Of a DNA stretch of 64,000 nucleotides, positions 7,442 to 18,541 are shown piece after piece. The stretch spans positions 124,001-188,000 of the forward strand of contig JAHJRQ010000012.1 of assembly GCA_018830485.1 (NCBI GenBank), read 5' to 3'. The notes below the pieces were generated by a model. It was not told the origin of the DNA. It saw only the letters and a program-made list of their open reading frames with translations, and searched no databases. This DNA comes from Pseudomonadota bacterium. Lineage in GTDB: Bacteria > Desulfobacterota > Desulfobulbia > Desulfobulbales > Desulfurivibrionaceae. Both the position numbers and the translations under genes were made by a program. The number at the start of each line of letters is the position of its first letter. The first letter of the stretch is position 1.

Positions 7442-7507
7442 GGCGCTAAGGGCTGACCGCGTAAGGGTTGCCAAAAAATTCTTGACTTTACCCTGATATC
7501 CGCTAAG

Positions 7508-7682
7508 TTGACGCTCATATCTCAGGCGCTCTGGAAAGAGCTTAAAAGGGAACCCGGTGTAAATCCGGGACGGGCCCGCCGCTGTAACCGGGGACGAGTT
7601 TCGCAATAACGCCACTGTTTTTTGAACGGGAAGGCGCGAAACAAGGACGAACCGGAAGTCAGAAGACCTGCCAGGGATAGTA
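7508..7682 (+). ncRNA. Cobalamin (AdoCbl-type) riboswitch
   Basis: The stretch holds the conserved blocks of a cobalamin riboswitch in order: an AAAAGGGAA-type segment near 7544, GCCGCTGTAACC near 7578, the core box GCCACTG at 7611-7617, and CCGGAAGTCAGAAGACCTGCC-like sequence at 7652-7672. It precedes a btuB-type receptor and a corrinoid uptake operon, as expected. A TTGACT box at 7482 is a possible -35 element for its promoter. High cobalamin should switch the operon off through the terminator that follows. Confidence 0.95.
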
Positions 7683-7743
7683 TATGTATCGCACACCTCT
7701 CGTGGACAGGGAGTTGTTGCGCTGGTCCAGTGGATATTTCGGG

Positions 7744-7788: not shown

Positions 7789-7848
7789 GCTTTCCTTTCA
7801 TGGATGCCCCCCGGATCAAAAAAAATTTTGGTTGGAGGGATGCAAACA

Positions 7849-9879
7849 ATGAACAAGAAGATGTATGCGGCGTTGCTGGCCTTGACTGTTGCCTGGCCGG
7901 TTCACGGACGCAGCGCCGAGCCGGTGGCCACCATGGATGAGGTGGTGGTGACGGCGACCAAGACAGCGGAAAACGTCCATGATGTGCCGAATGCCGTGAT
8001 CCTGAAAGACGGTGGGGATATCGAGGACGCGCCGGCCAGGAGTCTCGGCGAGTTGCTGGCCAACGAGCCGGGGCTTGACTGGCGCACCAGGGGCGACTAC
8101 GGCGGGGCCACAGAAGAGCTCCACATTCGGGGCATGGGCGGCGACGCCACCCAGGTTTTCCTGAACGGCATCAACATCAATTCTCCGTCCTTGGGCACTG
8201 CCGACTTGGGCCTGCTGCCCATGGGCAGCATCGAACGGGTTGAGGTGGTCAAGGGGCCTGGTTCCCTGCTGTACGGCACCGGCGCCATGGCCGGTACGGT
8301 GAACATCCTCACCAAGAACCCCGAGCCGGACAAACTGGATATGAAGCTGGGAAGCGGCTTTGGCAGCGAAGGCAATTACGAGCTTTCCGCGGAGCAGGGC
8401 ATGTATGTTGCCGACGGCCTGGGCTACTATCTCACCGCTTCCCGCCGGGAAAGCGACGGCTTCCGCGACAACAGCGACCTCCGCCATAACGACGCCTCCC
8501 TCAAGCTGGTCCACGACAAGAACAAGCTGCTCTCCGCCAGCCTGTATGGCGCCTGGATCGACCGGGAATACGGGGTGCCGGGGGTGAAGCCGCCCGACAC
8601 CACCCAGGAACATGTTGTCAACGGAACCCGGATGTACAACGCTGATGCCGCAAGCCTGGTGAACGAGGGCAGTGACCAAAACTTTTACTCAGCCCTGGAA
8701 TTGAAAAGCCAGCCGCTTTCCTGGCTGACCCTTGCCCTGCGGGGCGATGCGGTGAACATGGAAAATTATTTTTACCAGCGCTACAACGCAACCGGCGCCG
8801 GTCAGGAAACCTGGGTCACCAACGAGATTCTGGGGTTGGAGGGTACGGCGGAGATGCGGTTGCCAAAAGGGATTACCCTGCTGCTAGGCAGTCAGTACCG
8901 CAATTACGATTACACCAACGAGGTGGGTGGCCTGGATGCCTATGGGGTGGCGCTACCCGCCGCCACCACCGAGGCAGAGCATGATGTCTTCACCCAAGGC
9001 AACTACGGCGAGGCACAATGGCAGGCGAACCAGTACCTGAAGCTGCTTGCGGGGCTGCGCTATGAGGAGCACTCCATGTTCGGCAACGAAACCCTGCCCC
9101 GTTTCGGCGTCATGGTGACCCCCCAGGAAACGACCAGCATCAAGTTCGGTCACGGCAAGCACTTCAAGGCGCCCACCATGAACGACCTCTACTGGCCGGA
9201 AAGCGCGTATGTGCGGGGGAACCCCGATCTGAAACCCGAAACCGGCTGGCACAGCGACCTCACGGTGGAACAATCCTTTTTGAAAAAGAAACTGACCGTT
9301 TCGGCAACCTATTTTAAGTGGAACATCGACGACAAGATCGACTGGGCCCAAAATCCGGCCTTCCCTGGCCCGTGGGGGGACAAATATACTCCGTCAAACA
9401 CCAACTCCTACGAGGCCACGGGCTGGGAATTGGGGGTTTCTGCCAAGCCCCTGGATTCGGTAAGGGTGAGCTTGGGCTATACCCGAACCAATGCGGAGGA
9501 AGAGCAGGCTGTCGGGATGTGGAGGCAGGCCCAATACACCCCGCGCAATCTGTTTAAGGGGCAGGCCGACTATTTTCTGCCTTCCGGGCTTACCACCAGC
9601 GTGGTGGTCCGCTATGTGGGCGATCGGCCCGCTGTCTATGCCTCGGATACAGCCACAGACCCTCAGCACACCCTGGATTCTTACATAACCACCGACCTGC
9701 GCATAAGCCGGCGGTTCCAGGAGCACTGGCTGGCAGCCATCACGTGCAACAATATCTTTGATGCCGGGTACGACACCTACACGGCCACCTTCCGCGATGA
9801 AAACCTGGGGAGCACCACCCGGCAGGGATACCCTGGCGCGGGCCGCTCGGCCTTTGCCTCTCTTTCCTACGAGTTCTAA
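7849..9879 (+). CDS. btuB: TonB-dependent outer-membrane receptor, corrinoid (BtuB-like)
   Basis: A 676-residue outer-membrane receptor that would import corrinoids. ATG 7849 is chosen because GGAGGG at 7834-7839 is 9 bases upstream; the in-frame ATG at 7840 is too close to that site. A signal peptide (about 1-24) is followed by a TonB box-like MDEVVVTATK, a plug domain with a VEVVKGPGSLLYG-type motif, and a barrel ending in an aromatic residue (SYEF). It lies behind a cobalamin riboswitch and ahead of BtuF, BtuC and BtuD genes. Substrate assignment rests on that context; the barrel itself does not show specificity. Confidence 0.9.
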   Translation: MNKKMYAALLALTVAWPVHGRSAEPVATMDEVVVTATKTAENVHDVPNAVILKDGGDIEDAPARSLGELLANEPGLDWRTRGDYGGATEELHIRGMGGDATQVFLNGININSPSLGTADLGLLPMGSIERVEVVKGPGSLLYGTGAMAGTVNILTKNPEPDKLDMKLGSGFGSEGNYELSAEQGMYVADGLGYYLTASRRESDGFRDNSDLRHNDASLKLVHDKNKLLSASLYGAWIDREYGVPGVKPPDTTQEHVVNGTRMYNADAASLVNEGSDQNFYSALELKSQPLSWLTLALRGDAVNMENYFYQRYNATGAGQETWVTNEILGLEGTAEMRLPKGITLLLGSQYRNYDYTNEVGGLDAYGVALPAATTEAEHDVFTQGNYGEAQWQANQYLKLLAGLRYEEHSMFGNETLPRFGVMVTPQETTSIKFGHGKHFKAPTMNDLYWPESAYVRGNPDLKPETGWHSDLTVEQSFLKKKLTVSATYFKWNIDDKIDWAQNPAFPGPWGDKYTPSNTNSYEATGWELGVSAKPLDSVRVSLGYTRTNAEEEQAVGMWRQAQYTPRNLFKGQADYFLPSGLTTSVVVRYVGDRPAVYASDTATDPQHTLDSYITTDLRISRRFQEHWLAAITCNNIFDAGYDTYTATFRDENLGSTTRQGYPGAGRSAFASLSYEF

Positions 9880-9887
9880 GAAGAGAT

Positions 9888-11885
9888 ATGCGGAAGAAAC
9901 CTGTTTTTAGTATTGTTGTGTTCATGCTGCTCTGGGCTGGGGCAACTGCCCCGGCCTGGGCGAACCCGCTGCGGGATGCGCAGGAAAGATTCCCTGTTGA
10001 TCATCCTCCCCAGCGGGTGGTGTCGCTGGTGCCCGCCGCCACCGAGATGCTGGTGGCCGTGGGCGCTGGCGACGCAGTTGTTGGAATTACCAGCCACGAC
10101 ACCCTGCCGGTGGACCAAGGAAAAAAAGAGATCGTGGGCGGTTTTGTTGCCCCCTCTTTGGAGAAGATCGCGGCGCTCCACCCCGATCTGATCCTGGTCT
10201 CCAGCCTGCACGGCACGTTGAAGAAACGTTTTCAAGACCAGTGCGCCGTGGTGGAACTTCCCTCGGCTCATTCGGTGGAGCAGGCTCTTGAACGGCTCCA
10301 CGATCTTGGCGCACTGCTTGGCCGGGGGCAGGAGGCGGATGGACTGGCTGCGGGTATTCGCGCCGAGTTGGCGCTGATCCGGGCCAAGGTGGAGCCCATC
10401 CCCGCTGCCAAGCGTCAGCGGGTGATGAGGCTGATGGGACAGGCACCGCTCAGGACGCCGGGGGACGACTCCTTCCAGAACGACTTCATCCGGAGCGCTG
10501 GGGGGATCCCTCCCCGTTTCGGCAGAAATGGGGAGTCTATCGAGGTGAGCCCGGCGGAGATTGTCCGGTTCAATCCGCAGGCCATCTACATGTGCGGGGA
10601 TTCCGCCGCCGAAACGGTGCTGGCCAACCCGGCCCTGCAGAAAATCGAGGCGGTCACACACAAAAGAGTCTTTTCCTTCCCCTGCGAGCTCACCTGCCGC
10701 GCCGGGGTCAACATGGGCGGCTTTGTCTCCTGGCTGGCGGCACGGGTGTACGAACAGGAGTTCTCCGATCCAGCGCACCAGGCGTATCCAGACCAAATGC
10801 TCGAGGCGCGGCCGGTTGCGCTGCCCCTTCCCTATGTCCGGCAGGCACTGATGCAGAAAAGCCGGGTCCGCGATTTCATCAACAAAACCCTGGTGGTGGA
10901 TTTCACCACGCCGCAGCGCATACTCTCCACCCTGGAGGGGATGCGGGAGGGCGTGATGAGCGTGGGCAATCATTATTATCCCCCGCCTTCCTGGGGGCTT
11001 GGCCACACCAGCGGCTTGGACGGCTTGCGCCGGACGGTGACTACCGCCCTGGCCCGGCCAGCCGCCCAGACCAGCCTGTTGTTCACCGGGGCGGACATGG
11101 ATTATCTCGTCGTGGCTAAAAAATCGTTTCGCGACCTCACCGTGTATGCCCTGGTTACCGCGGGAGTCAAGACCAACGCCATGCGCATGGCCAAGGACAG
11201 CGGCAACTTTTACGAGCCCGGCACCATCAATATCGTCTTGCTCACCAATGCCCAGTTGAGCGAACAGGCCATGAGCCGGGCGATCATCACCGCCACCGAG
11301 GCCAAGAGTGCGGCCTTGACCGACCTGGACATCCGCAGCACCTACAGCCCAAACTATGCCGCCACGGGCACCGGCACCGACAACCTTCTGGTGGTGCAGG
11401 GCGAGGGACCCGGGATCAACGGCGCGGGCGGACACACCAAAATGGGGGAACTCATTGCCGCCGCCGTGTATGACGGAGTACGCCGGGCCATCGCCGGACA
11501 GAACAGGATAACCGCCGACCGCTCCATCTTTGCCCGGCTGGAGGAGCGGCGGATCAATCTTGCCTCGCTGCTGCCCTCCGAGCCCGAGGAATGCTCCCTG
11601 GATCGCCGGCAATTGGTTGCCGCCGTGGAGGATGCGCTCATGCAGCCGGAATATGCCGGGTTCATGGCAGGTTCGCTGGCCATAAGCGATGCGGCCCAAG
11701 CAGGGCTTGCCGATCCGAGGGGACATGCATCCTGGGCCAGGGCTGTGGCTGCGCGGCTGGCTGGCCGTGCGGTTGAGCCCTGGCGCACGCGTTTTTCCGA
11801 AGGCCAGTTGCCCCCGCTGGTGGCAAAGGCCTTGGAGGCACTGGTCAACGGGGTATGCGGTAGGGAAAAAGGGAGCGCGGATTGA
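9888..11885 (+). CDS. Exported fusion: BtuF-like corrinoid-binding domain plus CbiZ amidohydrolase
   Basis: A 665-residue fusion. A signal peptide (1-25, AWA before NP) precedes a class III periplasmic binding domain (about 40-300; RVVSLVPAATEML at its start). Residues about 330-540 match the CbiZ family of adenosylcobinamide amidohydrolases (VGNHYYPP near 359, GTGTDNLLV at 494-502, GGHTKMGE at 514-521). About 120 further residues have no clear assignment. CbiZ removes the lower-ligand arm of cobinamides so that foreign corrinoids can be remodelled; known CbiZ proteins act in the cytoplasm. Here the signal peptide and the fused binding domain place the enzyme in the periplasm. It starts 9 bases after btuB and overlaps the tonB start. 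Confidence 0.88.
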   Translation: MRKKPVFSIVVFMLLWAGATAPAWANPLRDAQERFPVDHPPQRVVSLVPAATEMLVAVGAGDAVVGITSHDTLPVDQGKKEIVGGFVAPSLEKIAALHPDLILVSSLHGTLKKRFQDQCAVVELPSAHSVEQALERLHDLGALLGRGQEADGLAAGIRAELALIRAKVEPIPAAKRQRVMRLMGQAPLRTPGDDSFQNDFIRSAGGIPPRFGRNGESIEVSPAEIVRFNPQAIYMCGDSAAETVLANPALQKIEAVTHKRVFSFPCELTCRAGVNMGGFVSWLAARVYEQEFSDPAHQAYPDQMLEARPVALPLPYVRQALMQKSRVRDFINKTLVVDFTTPQRILSTLEGMREGVMSVGNHYYPPPSWGLGHTSGLDGLRRTVTTALARPAAQTSLLFTGADMDYLVVAKKSFRDLTVYALVTAGVKTNAMRMAKDSGNFYEPGTINIVLLTNAQLSEQAMSRAIITATEAKSAALTDLDIRSTYSPNYAATGTGTDNLLVVQGEGPGINGAGGHTKMGELIAAAVYDGVRRAIAGQNRITADRSIFARLEERRINLASLLPSEPEECSLDRRQLVAAVEDALMQPEYAGFMAGSLAISDAAQAGLADPRGHASWARAVAARLAGRAVEPWRTRFSEGQLPPLVAKALEALVNGVCGREKGSAD

Positions 11886-12700
11886 AGACGGATTCGACGA
11901 CACTGGAGCTGTATACTGCCGGGCAATCGGACAGGCAGATCACTGCCGGAATCCGGCCCACCCCGGTATCTCTCCCTTGGCTTGGATTCGCCGTTTTAAA
12001 CGGAGGGCCCGTGCGGGCGCTGCTGTGCTCGCTTCTGTTGCACGGGGCTCTGCTGCTTATCTCTCTGGTTGGCTGGAGTCTGTTGCCCATGGAGCAGGCA
12101 CCCCCTTCGGTGATCTCGGTGTTTACCCTGCAGCAGGAAGGCGAACCGGAAGCACCGGGTGGAACGCGTTCTGAAAATGCTCCCACGACTCAACAGATAA
12201 AAGAACCTACTACCAAGGGGATACACGACAATACAGAAGTGAGGCCTGAAATTGCTCCTTCACTCGTATCGTCCTCCCCTGCCAATCCCGAACCTGGACA
12301 CGTCATGGCATCAGAGCCACCGATGGACGCCACTGCCCAACAAGGTACTGGCTCGGGCAGTCCCGCTCCCAGCCCCACTCCTGTCGGTGGGACAGGCGAA
12401 GGCGCACCAACCGGCGAGATATTGGCCCGCCCGCTCTACACAATCAATCCGCCGCCGCCCTACCCCAGGCTGGCCCGCAAGCTTGGCCACGAAGGCGTTG
12501 TGCAGCTTGAGGCGCTGGTTTCCATTGCCGGCCGGGTGGATGATCTGCGGATTGCCGCAAGCAGCGGCCATGAATCCCTGGATGCCGCAGCCCTGGAGGC
12601 CGTGCGTTTCTGGCGGTTTTCCGCTGGCCAGCGCAACGGGCAGCCCGTAGCCATGCGGGTCCGGGTGCCGGTGCGTTTCAGCCTGCGGGCGGGGAGCTGA
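11882..12700 (+). CDS. tonB: TonB family energy transducer
   Basis: A 272-residue TonB protein from a TTG start that overlaps the previous stop (TTGA). A cytoplasmic N-terminus of about 44 residues, one membrane helix (about 45-67), a Pro/Glu-rich spacer (about 70-185) and a C-terminal TonB domain (YPRLARKLGHEG near 192, then a VRFWRFSAG strand) are in the right order. It would couple proton motive force to the BtuB-like receptor. ExbB and ExbD are not in the window, so it must share a distant pair. The overlapping start ties its level to the fusion protein. Confidence 0.9.
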   Translation: MKTDSTTLELYTAGQSDRQITAGIRPTPVSLPWLGFAVLNGGPVRALLCSLLLHGALLLISLVGWSLLPMEQAPPSVISVFTLQQEGEPEAPGGTRSENAPTTQQIKEPTTKGIHDNTEVRPEIAPSLVSSSPANPEPGHVMASEPPMDATAQQGTGSGSPAPSPTPVGGTGEGAPTGEILARPLYTINPPPPYPRLARKLGHEGVVQLEALVSIAGRVDDLRIAASSGHESLDAAALEAVRFWRFSAGQRNGQPVAMRVRVPVRFSLRAGS

Positions 12701-12705
12701 AAACA

Positions 12706-14067
12706 GTGCAAGAACCCTTAAAAAAAACCGGGCGCGGCATCGTCCTGGCCGCCCCGTCCAGCAACAGCGGCAAGACCCTACTGAGCCTGGGACTGGGCGC
12801 GGCCCTGTTACGGGACGGCCTATCGGTGCAGTATTTCAAGTGCGGCCCGGATTTCATTGATCCCACCCTGCACCGGCTGGTGAGCGGTCGGGTGTCGCGC
12901 AACCTGGATCTGCGGATGTGCGGCCCAGCTTTTGTGCGGCAGAGCTATGCCCGACACTGCGCTGCGGATTTCGTCATCGTCGAAGGGGTGATGGGGCTCT
13001 TCGACGGCGGCGAGGCCAGCACCGCATCCTTGGCCAGAACCCTTGCGCTGCCGGTGGTGCTGGTGGTGGACGCTTCGTCCTGCGCCGAGAGCATCGCGGC
13101 CCTGGTACATGGCTTTGAATCCTTTGACCCGCAACTCACCATTGCCGGAGTCATCTTCAACCGGGTTGGCAGCGAGAGCCATTACCGGCTGCTTGCCCAG
13201 GCTGTGCACGAACATTGCCGGACCGAGGTGTTGGGCGGGGTTCCCCGGCATGACGATTTTCTGGTTTCCGGCCGTCATCTCGGTCTGCACATGGACCACG
13301 ACGAACCGCTTTCCTCGGAAAGGATCAACAGGATCGCCGAGGTCATGGCCCAACATATCGATCTCGCGCTGTTGCGGGAGAAGGGCGCGGTCCTGCCCAA
13401 AGTTTCCGGGTCGGCGGAAGTACGTAAAACAGCGCCGTGCGTTCGTCTCGGCATTGCCAGGGATGCGGCTTTTTGTTTTTATTATGAGGACAACCTTGAT
13501 CTTTTACGGGCGGCCGGCGCGGAGTTGATTCCGTTCAGCCCCCTGTCCGACTCGAAGTTACCCGACGACCTGGACGGCTTGTACCTGGGCGGCGGCTACC
13601 CGGAACTCCATGCGGAGGCCCTGGCGGCCAACCATTCCCTCCGGGAGGAGATTGGCCGCCGGGCCAAGGCTGGGCTGCCGATCTATGGCGAATGCGGCGG
13701 CTTCATGTATCTGTGCGAGGCGCTGGTTACGGCGGAGGGCGCGGAATATCCCATGGCCGGGGTATTTCCGGTAAAAGCCCGGATGCAGAAACGGCTGGTG
13801 CGGCTCGGCTATTGCACGGCAACGGTTACGAAAAACACCCTGTGGCCGGAAGGTGCGAGCCTTTTCGGCCATGAGTTTCACTATTCGGAGACAGACCCCA
13901 TACCCGATTGGGTTGAGAGGATGTATCGCCTCGATGATGGCAGGCCCGAAGGTTTTTGCCTGCACAATACCCTGGCCGGGTACATGCATCTGCATCTGGG
14001 GGCCACCCCCGAGGCGGCCGCCCACCTCATCGAGTTTTGCCGCACACATGGCAGGGAGGCACAGTGA
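12706..14067 (+). CDS. cbiA: Cobyrinate a,c-diamide synthase (CbiA/CobB)
   Basis: A 453-residue glutamine-dependent amidotransferase from GTG 12706, 5 bases after the tonB stop. The N-terminal dethiobiotin-synthase-like domain has P-loop APSSNSGKT (15-23) and KCGPDFIDPT near 46. The C-terminal class I glutaminase domain holds GECGGFMYL with catalytic Cys330. It amidates the a and c side chains of cobyrinate in cobalamin synthesis. It is the only ring-modifying enzyme in this operon, so other biosynthesis genes must lie elsewhere. The stop overlaps the next start. Confidence 0.95.
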   Translation: MQEPLKKTGRGIVLAAPSSNSGKTLLSLGLGAALLRDGLSVQYFKCGPDFIDPTLHRLVSGRVSRNLDLRMCGPAFVRQSYARHCAADFVIVEGVMGLFDGGEASTASLARTLALPVVLVVDASSCAESIAALVHGFESFDPQLTIAGVIFNRVGSESHYRLLAQAVHEHCRTEVLGGVPRHDDFLVSGRHLGLHMDHDEPLSSERINRIAEVMAQHIDLALLREKGAVLPKVSGSAEVRKTAPCVRLGIARDAAFCFYYEDNLDLLRAAGAELIPFSPLSDSKLPDDLDGLYLGGGYPELHAEALAANHSLREEIGRRAKAGLPIYGECGGFMYLCEALVTAEGAEYPMAGVFPVKARMQKRLVRLGYCTATVTKNTLWPEGASLFGHEFHYSETDPIPDWVERMYRLDDGRPEGFCLHNTLAGYMHLHLGATPEAAAHLIEFCRTHGREAQ

Positions 14068-14969
14068 GACAAAGAAACACCATTTTCCCCCTCATCCTCC
14101 TTGTTGCCCTGTTTTTTCCAGGACTGAGCTCTGCGGCCACCGTGGTGGATCAGGCCGGCCGGACGGTATCTCTCCCCAATGCGCCCAAGCGCATCGTTGC
14201 CCTAGCTCCCAGCCTGGCCGAGATCGTCTTTGATCTGGGCCAGGGTGCCAGTCTGGTGGGGGTGACCCAGTTCAGCGACTTTCCGGCCGAGGCCAAGAGT
14301 CTCCCCAGGGTCGGCTCCTATGTAAGGTTGGATCTTGAACGGATCGTGGCCCTCAAGCCTGACCTCTGCCTCGGTATCCGGGACGGCAATCCCAAGCATC
14401 AGGTGGAAAAAATCGAAGCTGCCGGGATTCCGGTGTACATCATCGACCCGCGCGATATCAAGGGGATTATGGCAGCCATCCAGGGGGTGGGCGAGGTGCT
14501 CGGCGTGCCGGCACGGGCCGAAGCGCTTGTTGCCGAAATGTCCGGCCGCGTTGCGCGTGTGCGGCAGCAGGTGGCGACAACCCACTCCCGGCCGCGGGTC
14601 TTTTTCCAGCTCTACTCACCCCCCATCGTCACCGCCGGCACCAGAACCTTTATCCACGAATTGATCACCATTGCCGGCGGCGTCAATCTGGGGGCCGGGC
14701 CAGTTGACTATCCGCGCTTGAGTTGGGAAAAAGTGCTCTCCCTTGATCCGGAGGTGGTGGTGGTCACCGCCATGGGCGGCAAACAGAAACCGGAGCAACT
14801 GAAGGCGCAATGGCAGCAGTGGACGCAGCTTTCCGCAGTGCGTTCAGGCCGGGTGCATGTGGTGGACGACAACCTCTTCGACCGGCCGACTCCGCGCCTC
14901 ATTAACGGGATGGAGGCGTTGCTTCGCGTCCTCCATCCCGAGTTGTTCGGAGCCGCGCATGTTCAATGA
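14064..14969 (+). CDS. btuF: Periplasmic corrinoid-binding protein BtuF
   Basis: A 301-residue class III substrate-binding protein. GTG 14064 overlaps the cbiA stop by 4 bases and has GGGAGG upstream; earlier in-frame starts run inside cbiA. A signal peptide (about 1-23) precedes the binding domain with RIVALAPSLAEIVF near residue 42, the BtuF/FhuD-type opening. It is the second corrinoid-binding domain in the operon, besides the one fused to CbiZ, and is the more likely donor to BtuC. It overlaps the btuC start by 11 bases. Confidence 0.92.
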   Translation: MRQRNTIFPLILLVALFFPGLSSAATVVDQAGRTVSLPNAPKRIVALAPSLAEIVFDLGQGASLVGVTQFSDFPAEAKSLPRVGSYVRLDLERIVALKPDLCLGIRDGNPKHQVEKIEAAGIPVYIIDPRDIKGIMAAIQGVGEVLGVPARAEALVAEMSGRVARVRQQVATTHSRPRVFFQLYSPPIVTAGTRTFIHELITIAGGVNLGAGPVDYPRLSWEKVLSLDPEVVVVTAMGGKQKPEQLKAQWQQWTQLSAVRSGRVHVVDDNLFDRPTPRLINGMEALLRVLHPELFGAAHVQ

Positions 14970-15969
14970 CCTTCGTTTGGGCGTTCGACTCACCCTGGTG
15001 ACCATCGCGCTGGCCGGGCTGCTGGCAATAAGCTTCCTGCTCGGCATGGGCATCGGCCCATCCGGCAACGGGATTTCCGAGCTGCTGACCGCGGTTTTCG
15101 GCAGCGGCGACCCGCAATCGGTCTTCAGCGTTATTGTCTGGAAGATCCGGCTGCCCCGGGTTATCCTGGCAGCGGCGGTGGGCTCCACCCTTTCCTTGGG
15201 TGGGCTGGTGTTTCAGGCCCTGCTCCGCAATCCGCTTGCCGAGCCTTACATCCTCGGTATCTCGGGCGGTTCGGCGGTGGGGGCAATCGGCGGCATGCTC
15301 CTTGGGTTTTCTCCCTTTCCCGGCATGGCCCTGGCCGCCTTTGCGGGCAGCCTCCTGATTCTTGTCCTGGTGGTCGGCCTGATCTCCGGCAACACCTCCA
15401 TGGGCCGGGACTCCCTCCTCCTGGGCGGGGTAATGATGAATGCCTTCTGCGGGGCGATCATCATGTTTCTTATTTCCATTACCCAGACTTCGGAGGTCCA
15501 CCAGATCCTTTTCTGGCTCATGGGCGACCTTTCCATGTCCGGTCTCGACCGCTTGCCGGTGCTGCTTCTCCTCTTGCCCTGTTTCGCCGTAATTTTCGCG
15601 CTGTCGAAACCTTTGAATATGCTCCTGGCCGGGAGGGAATCCGCGGCCAGCCTGGGGATCGACGTGCGGCGGCTCACCATGCTGCTGTTGCTGGTCACCA
15701 CCTGCATGGTGAGCTTGGTGGTGTGCCAGTCCGGGTTGATCGGTTTTGTCGGTCTGGTTATTCCCCATGTCCTTCGCTTGCTTCTGGGGCCGGACCACCG
15801 GCTGCTCGTGCCGGCCTGCATCCTGGGCGGCGCTTCCTACCTGATCCTCTGCGATCTCCTGGCCCGCACCCTACCAACCTCTGGCGAGATGCCTGTAGGT
15901 ATTGTCACGGCCCTCATCGGAGCCCCGCTTTTCATCGCCCTGCTGTGGAGGTCCCGCCGATGCCAGTGA
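14959..15969 (+). CDS. btuC: Corrinoid ABC transporter permease BtuC
   Basis: A 336-residue FecCD-family permease with about nine to ten membrane helices. ATG 14959 overlaps the btuF end; longer frames start within btuF. Family sequence features include KIRLPRVILAAAVG near residue 61, GLVFQALLRNPLAEP near 80 and a C-terminal GLIGFVGLVIPHVLR segment that contacts the ATPase. It would pass corrinoid across the inner membrane as part of BtuCDF. Its end overlaps btuD by 10 bases. Confidence 0.95.
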   Translation: MFNDLRLGVRLTLVTIALAGLLAISFLLGMGIGPSGNGISELLTAVFGSGDPQSVFSVIVWKIRLPRVILAAAVGSTLSLGGLVFQALLRNPLAEPYILGISGGSAVGAIGGMLLGFSPFPGMALAAFAGSLLILVLVVGLISGNTSMGRDSLLLGGVMMNAFCGAIIMFLISITQTSEVHQILFWLMGDLSMSGLDRLPVLLLLLPCFAVIFALSKPLNMLLAGRESAASLGIDVRRLTMLLLLVTTCMVSLVVCQSGLIGFVGLVIPHVLRLLLGPDHRLLVPACILGGASYLILCDLLARTLPTSGEMPVGIVTALIGAPLFIALLWRSRRCQ

Positions 15970-16757
15970 TCTCTGTCACGGGTCTTGATCTCTGTTACGG
16001 CAAGCGGCAGGTGCTGCAGGATATTTCCATGCAGGTGCATCACGGGGAATTCTATCTCATCATCGGGCCAAACGGCAGCGGCAAAACCAGCCTGCTCAAG
16101 GCACTGGCCAATCTTCTCCCCATCGCTGACGGCCAGATCGAGATTCTCGGCAAATCATTGACCAGCTATACCAGACGGCAATTGGCGCGCAAGCTTGCCG
16201 TGGTGCCCCAGCAGATTTCCCTGGACTTCCCATTTTCCGTGGCGGAAACCGTGCTCATGGGGCGGGCCCCGCATCTTGGCCTCATGGGAATTGAGAGGGG
16301 AGCAGACCACGCCTTGGCCCGGGAGGCCATGCATTTTACCGATGTGGCCCATCTTGCCGACCGCCCTCTTGACCAGTTGAGCGGCGGCGAGAGGCAGCGG
16401 GTGATCATTGCCCGGGCGCTCTGCCAGCAGCCGGAGATCATCCTGCTCGATGAGCCGACCGCCTCCCTGGACCCGGCCCACCAGATCCAGATCATGGATC
16501 TGATGGAGCGATTCCGCGTGGAAAAAGGGACCACGGTTATCATGGTGTCCCACGACCTCAATCTGGCCTCCCTCTATGGCGATCGGCTGCTGCTGCTCCA
16601 TAACGGCAGAGTGGAAATGGTGGGTTCACCCGACGAGGTGCTCACTGCCGAGCGCCTTGGCGGTTGCTATGGCTGCGCCATGCTGGTCGAGAAAAATTCC
16701 CTGGGCCAGATGCCCCGCGTAACGCCTATTCCGCAGAAATACTCTCATATTGTGTAA
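15960..16757 (+). CDS. btuD: Corrinoid ABC transporter ATPase BtuD
   Basis: A 265-residue ATPase of the FecE/BtuD type. It carries Walker A GPNGSGKTS near residues 36-44, signature LSGGERQR, Walker B IILLDEP and a switch histidine (MVSHDLN). ATG 15960 overlaps the btuC end by 10 bases. It energises corrinoid import through BtuC. The CBS-free C-terminal 20 residues are of no clear function. A gap of 156 bases separates it from the FmdE gene. Confidence 0.94.
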   Translation: MPVISVTGLDLCYGKRQVLQDISMQVHHGEFYLIIGPNGSGKTSLLKALANLLPIADGQIEILGKSLTSYTRRQLARKLAVVPQQISLDFPFSVAETVLMGRAPHLGLMGIERGADHALAREAMHFTDVAHLADRPLDQLSGGERQRVIIARALCQQPEIILLDEPTASLDPAHQIQIMDLMERFRVEKGTTVIMVSHDLNLASLYGDRLLLLHNGRVEMVGSPDEVLTAERLGGCYGCAMLVEKNSLGQMPRVTPIPQKYSHIV

Positions 16758-16913
16758 GGCCGTGCCACGGGCAGGTTTCGCCTTGTTGTGTCCGAACCAT
16801 AGCCATTTTCCCGGCGCCGTGACTTTCTCTGGCAAAATTTCCCTCTTTCGCCTACATTCGTATGCATGGATTTGCGTCGGTCACGGCGCCGTTTTCAATA
16901 CCGGAGAAATTAC

Positions 16914-17492
16914 ATGGAAACATTCGAGCAACTTCTTGAAAAATCGACTAAAATACACGGCCACATCTGCGCAGGCCAGGTCATCGGGGTGCGCATGTCC
17001 ATGATCGGCCTGCGGGAGATCGGCATCGACGATCCAAAGGCGCAGCGCAAGGATTTCTATGTGCTGGTGGAGATAGATCGCTGCGCCACCGACGCCATCC
17101 AGACCGTCACCGGCTGTTCGTTGGGCAAGCGTTCCCTGAAATGGCTGGATTACGGGATCATGGCCGCCACCTTTGTCAATCTCAAGACCTCCAAGGCGGT
17201 GCGGATCACGGCCCTTGAGGAGTCGCGGGAGACCTCGAAAAAATACTGCCCTGAGATCGGCGACAAGTACAAGCAGCAGTTGGAAGCCTACCGGATCATG
17301 CCCGAAGCGGAGCTGTTCAAGGTGCAGGAAGTCAAAATCACCGTGCCGGAAGAGGACATGCCGGGCCGGCCCATGCGGAGAGTGCAATGCGAGCGCTGCG
17401 GGGACTGGGTGCAGGATTGCCGCGAGGTGATGCAGGACGGTAAGCCCCTCTGCAAGCCCTGCGCCTTTGGCCGTTACTACGAAATTATCTGA
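16914..17492 (+). CDS. FmdE family protein with C-terminal zinc ribbon
   Basis: A 192-residue cytoplasmic protein. The FmdE domain starts with the motif HGHICAGQ (residues 15-22), whose His and Cys bind metal in related structures, and continues to about 130. A C-terminal four-Cys ribbon (CERCG ... CKPC, about 160-185) is added. FmdE domains were named from formylmethanofuran dehydrogenase, but in bacteria stand-alone copies have no settled function and often sit beside molybdopterin or metal-uptake genes. ATG 16914 is chosen for the CCGGAG site 9 bases upstream. It is followed by the MoeA-like gene after 23 bases. Confidence 0.87.
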   Translation: METFEQLLEKSTKIHGHICAGQVIGVRMSMIGLREIGIDDPKAQRKDFYVLVEIDRCATDAIQTVTGCSLGKRSLKWLDYGIMAATFVNLKTSKAVRITALEESRETSKKYCPEIGDKYKQQLEAYRIMPEAELFKVQEVKITVPEEDMPGRPMRRVQCERCGDWVQDCREVMQDGKPLCKPCAFGRYYEII

Positions 17493-17515
17493 GCCTCGGG
17501 CTGCTGGAGCACAAT

Positions 17516-18541
17516 ATGACAAAAACAATCCCGGTTGAGCAGGCCGTCGGCATGGTCCTGCCCCACGACATCACCGAAATCCGCAGCGAAGAATTCAAGG
17601 GTCGGGCTTTTCGCAAGGGCCACATCATCCAGGCCGAGGACATCGAGCGGTTGAAGCGGCTCGGCAAGGACAACATCTATGTCCTGGAGCTTACGCCCGA
17701 GGATATCCACGAAAACGAGGCGGCCGAGTTGATGGCCGGAGCACTGGCAGGGCCTGGCGCCTCGGTGTCCGGGGAGCCGGTGGAAGGCAAGCTCAACATT
17801 GTCGCCGCCCATGACGGGCTGCTCAAGGTCGATGTGGAATCCCTGTATCGGTTCAACCTGCTGGGCGAGGTCATGTGCGCCACCCTGCACAACAATACAC
17901 CGGTCAAACAGGGCGAACAACTGGCCGGGACTCGACTCATCCCCCTGGTTTCCAAAAGAGGTGTCGTGAACACCGCGGTTGCAATCGCCGAAAAAGCTGG
18001 GGGGATTATCAGGGTAGCCCAACTGAAACAGGCCAAAGCCGGGTTGATCATCACCGGCAACGAGGTGTTCCATGGCCGGATCAAGGATGCCTTTGAACCG
18101 GTCCTGCGCAAGAAACTGGAAAAACTCGGTTCGGAGGTGGTGGCGGTCCGCTTCGCCCCGGACGATATCGAGACCATTGGTGCGGAAATCAAGGCTTGCC
18201 TGGATGCAGGCGCGGACCTCATCGTCACCAGCGGCGGCATGTCCGTGGACCCGGACGATGTGACCCGGCAGGGTATTGCCAAGGCCGGCGCCGAGGAGAT
18301 CGTTTACGGCACCCCGGTTCTGCCCGGGGCCATGTTTTTGGTGGGGTACATCGGAGCGGTGCCGGTGCTGGGGCTGCCGGCCTGCGGCATGTTCCACAAG
18401 ATCACCGTCTTTGACCTGATTCTGCCCAGGGTGCTGTGCGGCGAAAAAATCACCCGGCATGACATGGCCCGGTTGGGACACGGCGGCCTGTGCCGGCAGT
18501 GCAAGACCTGCGCCTATCCCGTTTGCGGCTTCGGCAAGTAA
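17516..18541 (+). CDS. MoeA-like molybdopterin-binding domain protein
   Basis: A 341-residue protein related to MoeA/MogA. An N-terminal region (PVEQAVGMVLPHDITEI near residues 6-22) resembles the MoeA start, and the MoCF-type binding domain covers about 175-315 (LIITGNEVFHGRIKDA near 178, TSGGMSVDPDDV near 238, and a PVLGLPACGMFH loop). It is shorter than true MoeA (about 400) and ends in a four-Cys tail (CRQCKTCAYPVC). In related bacteria this type commonly follows an fmdE gene. A role in inserting molybdenum or tungsten into pterin is possible but unproven for this subfamily. Confidence 0.82.
   Translation: MTKTIPVEQAVGMVLPHDITEIRSEEFKGRAFRKGHIIQAEDIERLKRLGKDNIYVLELTPEDIHENEAAELMAGALAGPGASVSGEPVEGKLNIVAAHDGLLKVDVESLYRFNLLGEVMCATLHNNTPVKQGEQLAGTRLIPLVSKRGVVNTAVAIAEKAGGIIRVAQLKQAKAGLIITGNEVFHGRIKDAFEPVLRKKLEKLGSEVVAVRFAPDDIETIGAEIKACLDAGADLIVTSGGMSVDPDDVTRQGIAKAGAEEIVYGTPVLPGAMFLVGYIGAVPVLGLPACGMFHKITVFDLILPRVLCGEKITRHDMARLGHGGLCRQCKTCAYPVCGFGK

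Follow-up and report, generated by a model that had tools for sequence, protein, structure and literature searches.

CbiZ cleaves the amide adjoining the aminopropanol (PMC7733943). In vitro, CbiZ from R. sphaeroides cut pseudocobalamin but not cobalamin, and a link between CbiZ activity and uptake has been proposed earlier (PMC7733943). Activity has been reported on adenosylated substrates (PMC3541065, PMC7733943), and the location of cbiZ near btuFCD or corrinoid transporter genes is already known (PMC8620254, PMC4285132). CbiR and CobS share with CbiZ a role in remodeling the lower ligands of cobamides but are unrelated in sequence, and the bond cut by CbiR differs (PMC7733943). Archaeal and R. 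sphaeroides CbiZ enzymes, which are adenosylcobinamide amidohydrolases, have been treated as cytoplasmic, and cobamide remodeling has so far been described as intracellular. In the literature searched, we found no description of an exported or BtuF-fused CbiZ, although an earlier mention is possible.

Here, we describe a locus within a 64,000-nucleotide stretch of DNA (the window, to which all coordinates refer unless a locus is named) that encodes a CbiZ domain preceded by a signal peptide and a BtuF-type binding domain. The protein shares with archaeal and R. sphaeroides CbiZ the Pfam domain, the residues conserved across the family, and a salvage context with CbiB; in contrast to those enzymes, its CbiZ domain is predicted to be exported and is joined to BtuF. 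With BtuF, it shares membership in the Peripla_BP_2 family and export but differs by relaxed docking glutamates, an extra conserved Cys triad, and an appended catalytic-type domain. CbiS, a bifunctional CbiZ-phosphatase (NF038002), likewise contains CbiZ within a multidomain protein, but in the fusion CbiZ is partnered by a binding domain that lies N-terminal to it and carries a signal peptide. Against the CbiS equivalog, the fusion reached only 77.3 bits (cutoff of 250), over part of the NF038002 profile, and is thus no full-length match.

We consider it probable that the fusion is a soluble periplasmic capture-and-process enzyme, which would capture corrinoids, hydrolyze their nucleotide loop, and hand the product over to BtuF/BtuCD for later rebuilding. 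Such an enzyme would shift a remodeling step outside the cytoplasm. If remodeling begins in the periplasm, importers could ignore the lower ligand, nucleotide-loop fragments would be kept out of the cytoplasm, and selectivity would shift from the transporter and intracellular enzymes to a secreted hydrolase. This reading is testable in cultured carriers of the fusion (Desulfogranum, Desulfoluna, and strain NaphS2).

Architecture, predicted export, and distribution of the fusion

The fusion (positions 9888 to 11885, plus strand, as are all operon features given below) encodes 665 amino acids from an ATG start. Its start codon lies 8 bp downstream of the stop codon of the receptor gene and is immediately preceded by the purine-rich sequence AAGAAGAG. 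Pfam matched Peripla_BP_2 (PF01497) to residues 44 to 265 (E = 2.6e-25; 89.7 bits, cutoff 27.5) and CbiZ (PF01955) to residues 339 to 531 (E = 1.9e-52; 178.5 bits, cutoff 27), with the CbiZ match spanning profile positions 2 to 191 of 191. Together with the N-terminal sequence, these matches bear out the layout put forward in a preliminary description of the locus, namely, a signal peptide followed by a binding domain and then CbiZ. The combination of a Peripla_BP_2 match above cutoff and a signal peptide also places the fusion among BtuF-type proteins. A full-length structure prediction was confident overall (pLDDT 86.7, pTM 0.86), with low confidence over the signal-peptide stretch.

The predicted Sec signal peptide comprises residues 1 to 25 (positions 9888 to 9962). 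The N-terminus, which reads MRKKPVFSIVVFMLLWAGATAPAWA followed by NPLRDA, displays a basic n-region, a hydrophobic core, and an A-W-A cleavage motif, with cleavage predicted between AWA and NP; the assignment was made by eye and hydropathy, without a dedicated predictor. Across the whole 665 amino acids, hydropathy indicated no second segment sufficiently hydrophobic to be a membrane segment. A signal-like N-terminus was seen in nearly all near-full-length fusions whose start is present. The window protein and nearly all of its distant full-length homologues thus speak against the possibility that the N-terminus is not a signal peptide. Within the CbiZ core, the fusions contain a mean of 0.8 cysteines (n = 57), compared to 3.3 in archaeal CbiZ (P = 2e-4) and 5.4 in the bacterial standalone proteins (P = 7e-9), with both P values inflated by relatedness. 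Such a cysteine-poor core fits a protein located outside the cytoplasm. From these features we infer a periplasmic location, and action before import would follow from the topology and operon context.

It is scarcely plausible that the protein instead resides in the cytoplasm, with an uncleaved or nonfunctional leader and CbiZ in its classical place. The literature found does put CbiZ in intracellular salvage or remodeling after uptake, but this placement is difficult to reconcile with the clean signal peptides of distant homologues, the scarcity of cysteines noted above, and the joining of CbiZ to a domain family that functions outside the membrane. Moreover, the CobN partners discussed below likewise carry signal peptides, whereas readable standalone CbiZ proteins of the same class begin without one.

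A scan of GTDB genomes returned 79 loci. The near-full-length architecture recurs in 56 homologous loci; thus, the fusion is not a chance event. With the window protein included, 57 near-full-length fusions were alignable, and identity ranged from 37 to 92% for the 51 homologues placed by the alignment tool. Carriers belong mainly to the Desulfobacterota, with further representatives in the Nitrospirota, Spirochaetota, and Synergistota. In the class of the host (Desulfobulbia), CbiZ was found in 65 of 258 genomes. About 41 of these 65 contain an open frame of at least 650 amino acids, a fusion-sized proxy, and five of the latter contain, in addition, another CbiZ frame, roughly 400 amino acids long. 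A tree built from 81 CbiZ cores placed all fusions in a single clade (support 99/93), which groups with archaeal-type CbiZ and is distant from the standalone CbiZ proteins of this class.

Binding domain and BtuC docking

The BtuF-type substrate-binding domain (residues 44 to 265; positions 10017 to 10682) has E. coli BtuF among its top PDB matches. E. coli BtuF docks to BtuC via Glu72 and Glu202, one glutamate per lobe. Both docking glutamates are kept in every BtuF protein, whether separate or C-terminal, that was collected from the window and from the fusion loci (37/37). In the fusions, Glu occupies the first site in 18/57 (38/57 if Asp is counted as well) and the second site in 31/57; the difference in docking Glu between fusions and separate BtuFs gave Fisher P values of 1e-12 (first site) and 1.5e-7 (second site), with kinship ignored. 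In the window fusion, the equivalent residues are E92, which is kept, and A223, with a glutamate at residue 224, such that the pair of conserved glutamates characteristic of a BtuCD docking partner is not present. Phe86 occupies the position of E. coli W66, where an aromatic residue is kept in 89% of fusions.

The relaxed glutamates lend independent support to the earlier suggestion of a capture-and-process enzyme distinct from the binding protein of the transporter. A separate BtuF is indeed encoded downstream, as had been claimed (positions 14064 to 14969, likely GTG start at 14064), but TonB and CobB intervene. It carries a signal peptide and both docking glutamates. The simplest reading would be that the N-terminal domain of the fusion captures corrinoid for the enzyme and that the other BtuF serves the transporter.

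A different role for the same domain, which we regard as unlikely, is that the fusion is itself the binding protein of BtuCD, with a tethered amidase that trims corrinoids during delivery. Its substrate-binding domain is clearly of the BtuF type and shares an operon with BtuCD, although that operon already encodes a BtuF with both glutamates. Retention of E92 at the first docking site and a glutamate one residue past the second also speak for this role, but invariance at these sites is confined to the separate BtuFs and does not extend to the fusions. Furthermore, in the BtuF-CbiZ-BtuF triple fusions found at four loci (L026, L038, L064, and L068), it is the second, C-terminal BtuF that retains both glutamates, and at several loci CobN-like genes, not BtuCD, adjoin the fusion.

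The binding domain of the presumed capture enzyme is further distinguished by a conserved Cys triad (motif FPC[DE]LTCR). C236 (53/57 fusions; codon at 10593-10595) lies within the domain, while C266 (53/57; 10683-10685) and C270 (55/57; 10695-10697) lie just past its end. Part of the triad is missing in a few divergent fusions, and E. coli BtuF lacks the triad over the aligned part. Possible roles are binding of metal or cobalt, disulfide formation, and dealkylation of the corrinoid.

CbiZ domain and candidate nucleophile

The CbiZ amidohydrolase domain (residues 339 to 531; positions 10902 to 11480) was delineated from Pfam, conservation, and the predicted model. Of the positions conserved to 90% or more in each of three groups (fusions, archaeal CbiZ, and bacterial CbiZ), the window protein keeps 34/34; none of these family-wide residues is missing, a loss that would have spoken against the proposed reading. 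Within the fusion, CbiZ is the most conserved region (mean column conservation of 0.71 versus 0.59 for the substrate-binding domain). Among close relatives, dN/dS was ~0.14 to 0.25 for both fusion domains and ~0.14 to 0.24 for CbiZ. The window protein does deviate at two positions conserved elsewhere in CbiZ (Gly replaced by Ala at 435 and Gln by Thr at 478), which might point to a catalytically dead domain in a protein that serves as a corrinoid scavenger or reservoir. Given the retention of every group-wide conserved position, along with the conservation and dN/dS values, we view this explanation as highly improbable.

A model of residues 300 to 665 (pLDDT 92.2) resembled the DmpA/OAT fold, with Z scores of 14.2 for NylC, 13.2 for ThnT, 12.6 for BapA, 12.3 for OAT, and 11.7 for DmpA, compared to 7.3 for the next unrelated fold. 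The CbiZ part is thus predicted to adopt the DmpA/NylC fold of the N-terminal-nucleophile amidase superfamily. CbiZ would share this fold (Z, 11.5 to 14.2) and amide hydrolysis with DmpA, NylC, BapA, ThnT, and ornithine acetyltransferase, but without significant sequence similarity to them. Profile comparison yielded no significant sequence link between CbiZ and the ArgJ and Peptidase_S58 profiles, and a PDB sequence search found no relative of the CbiZ part. For such a family, the fold assignment offers a concrete catalytic hypothesis. Amidases of the DmpA/NylC type with an N-terminal nucleophile work without ATP and without metal.

Members of the superfamily self-cleave autocatalytically ahead of a Thr or Ser nucleophile. 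The candidate nucleophile is Thr446 (codon at positions 11223 to 11225). The G445-T446 pair is invariant, and Thr446 opens a strand that follows a long loop. The hhalign tool paired the T446 region with the Peptidase_S58 site weakly (E = 0.069). As this profile link is not significant, the case for Thr446 as the probable nucleophile is built on fold and invariance.

Operon, probable host salvage pathway, and CobN-like partners

The operon is headed by a cobalamin riboswitch (RF00174; positions 7507 to 7689; 127.3 bits, gathering cutoff 31.5; E = 1.2e-31), which lies upstream of the fusion and in the direction of its transcript, as expected of a member of the cobalamin riboswitch regulon. A hairpin with a T-run, spotted by eye 3' of the riboswitch, suggests that control is probably transcriptional. 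A cobalamin riboswitch is also present in 7/8 related loci scanned, and Btu genes flank the fusion in 32/33 loci with wide flanks. In the window, the riboswitch is followed by BtuB, the fusion, TonB, CobB, the separate BtuF, BtuC, and BtuD. The BtuB-like TonB-dependent outer-membrane receptor (positions 7840 to 9879) has a likely start at 7840 in a frame open from 7684, and its top NCBIfam match is TonB-B12 (TIGR01779; 171.8 bits, under cutoff). The TonB-like energy transducer (positions 11882 to 12700) matches TonB_C (PF03544), with TIGR01352 above cutoff, and the CobB/CbiA cobyrinate a,c-diamide synthase (positions 12706 to 14067) matches NF002204 at 486.5 bits (cutoff 254). Profile matches also identified the BtuC-type permease (FecCD; positions 14959 to 15969) and the BtuD-type ATPase (positions 15960 to 16757).

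Profile searches of the host genome, which is 97.9% complete, found no match for CbiD or CbiC, and the host seems incapable of de novo B12 synthesis. Its CbiB gene adjoins a gene for a CbiP-like amidotransferase, CobU is present, and the single CbiZ match is the fusion. This gene set would fit a salvage organism in which imported corrinoids are converted to cobyric acid and rebuilt. CobB/CbiA is encoded in the uptake operon even though the genome yielded neither CbiD nor CbiC. Within the genus of the host, CbiZ matches occur in 5/5 genomes lacking CbiD versus 3/12 with CbiD (P = 0.009, kinship ignored). We rejected the notion that the fusion is restricted to genomes without de novo synthesis, since many fusion genomes of the class have CbiD. 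With many fusion-bearing genomes beyond the genus also containing CbiD, dependence on salvage is not general. In five genomes of the same genus (G194, G195, G198, G199, and G205), CbiD matches are broken into two or three segments that score lower, possibly reflecting gene decay or rearrangement in these relatives of the genomes without CbiD.

In the mechanism that we favor, BtuB and TonB would bring corrinoids through the outer membrane, and the N-terminal BtuF-type domain of the fusion would capture them. The CbiZ domain, with Thr446 as its probable nucleophile, would then hydrolyze the amide between the aminopropanol/nucleotide loop and the corrin ring to yield cobyric acid. This product would be handed to the separate BtuF and imported via BtuCD, after which CbiB and CobU, along with enzymes acting further on in the pathway, would reassemble whichever cobamide the cell prefers. 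The sequence itself documents the operon with its riboswitch, the architecture, signal peptide, and conservation of the fusion, its relaxed docking glutamates, the absence of CbiD and CbiC matches, and the presence of CbiB and CobU; from these features we infer catalysis, nucleophile, product, and hand-over. Points that count against the periplasmic explanation include the lack of a general dependence on salvage, the incomplete Cys triad of divergent fusions, and the assignment of the signal peptide by eye and hydropathy. Adenosylation is a cytoplasmic step, so extracellular corrinoids may not be adenosylated, while CbiZ has been described on adenosylated substrates. In addition, cobyric acid as the product leaves the CobB of the operon unaccounted for.

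In other genomes, a CobN-like gene lies near or is fused to BtuF-CbiZ (24/66 loci), mostly adjacent to it. CobN-like genes lie downstream of the fusion at L019, L021, L023, L024, L028, L029, L030, L036, L039, L041, L042, L044, L052, L054, L065, and L067. Most of these CobN-like neighbors have a signal peptide themselves and end in a membrane helix at the C-terminus. At two loci, in Synergistaceae and a deltaproteobacterium, the exported BtuF-CbiZ is fused to a full CobN-Mg_chel domain and ends in a C-terminal membrane helix (L058, 7998-13901; L051, 1224-7358). For the one CobN-like neighbor tested, the heme dechelatase HmuS was the best relative in the PDB. HmuS is likewise a membrane-anchored, CobN-like protein of tetrapyrrole processing tied to TonB-dependent uptake, but its substrate is heme (PMC12583661); its relatives adjoin the fusion in genomes other than that of the host. 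In Geobacter lovleyi, a cobN-exbB-exbD-tonB cluster has been linked to B12, with its role unassigned (PMC3403914). The Cys triad, the BtuF-CbiZ-BtuF and BtuF-CbiZ-CobN fusions, and the neighboring exported CobN-like protein resembling HmuS appear to be new.

These partners invite an explanation in which corrinoids are dismantled in the periplasm for their cobalt or ring, with CbiZ trimming the molecule and an exported HmuS-like CobN removing the metal. The frequency and adjacency of the CobN-like genes, their signal peptides and membrane helices, the two direct fusions, and the relationship of the tested protein to HmuS all favor it. As an account of the window locus, it is nonetheless very unlikely. 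HmuS acts on heme, and a profile search of the host genome found no CobN family member; thus, dechelation cannot explain this locus, and we do not apply that reading to it. For many Desulfobacterota, we can tentatively envision a combined route in which periplasmic BtuF-CbiZ captures and clips corrinoids with the aid of the Cys site, often followed by metal removal or exchange by an exported CobN-like protein, although we lean against it as a complete scheme. If this extracytoplasmic line were true in full, relatives of B12 would be remodeled or dismantled before passage through the inner membrane. The exported CobN-like partners in related species add to the interest of the fusion.

At one related locus (L013, 4980-5410), a tandem pair of cobalamin riboswitches precedes the receptor and fusion genes. 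The stretch after the B12 operon in the window (positions 16911 to 18541) encodes FmdE-like and MoCF (molybdopterin-binding) proteins, and close relatives retain these genes next to the operon.
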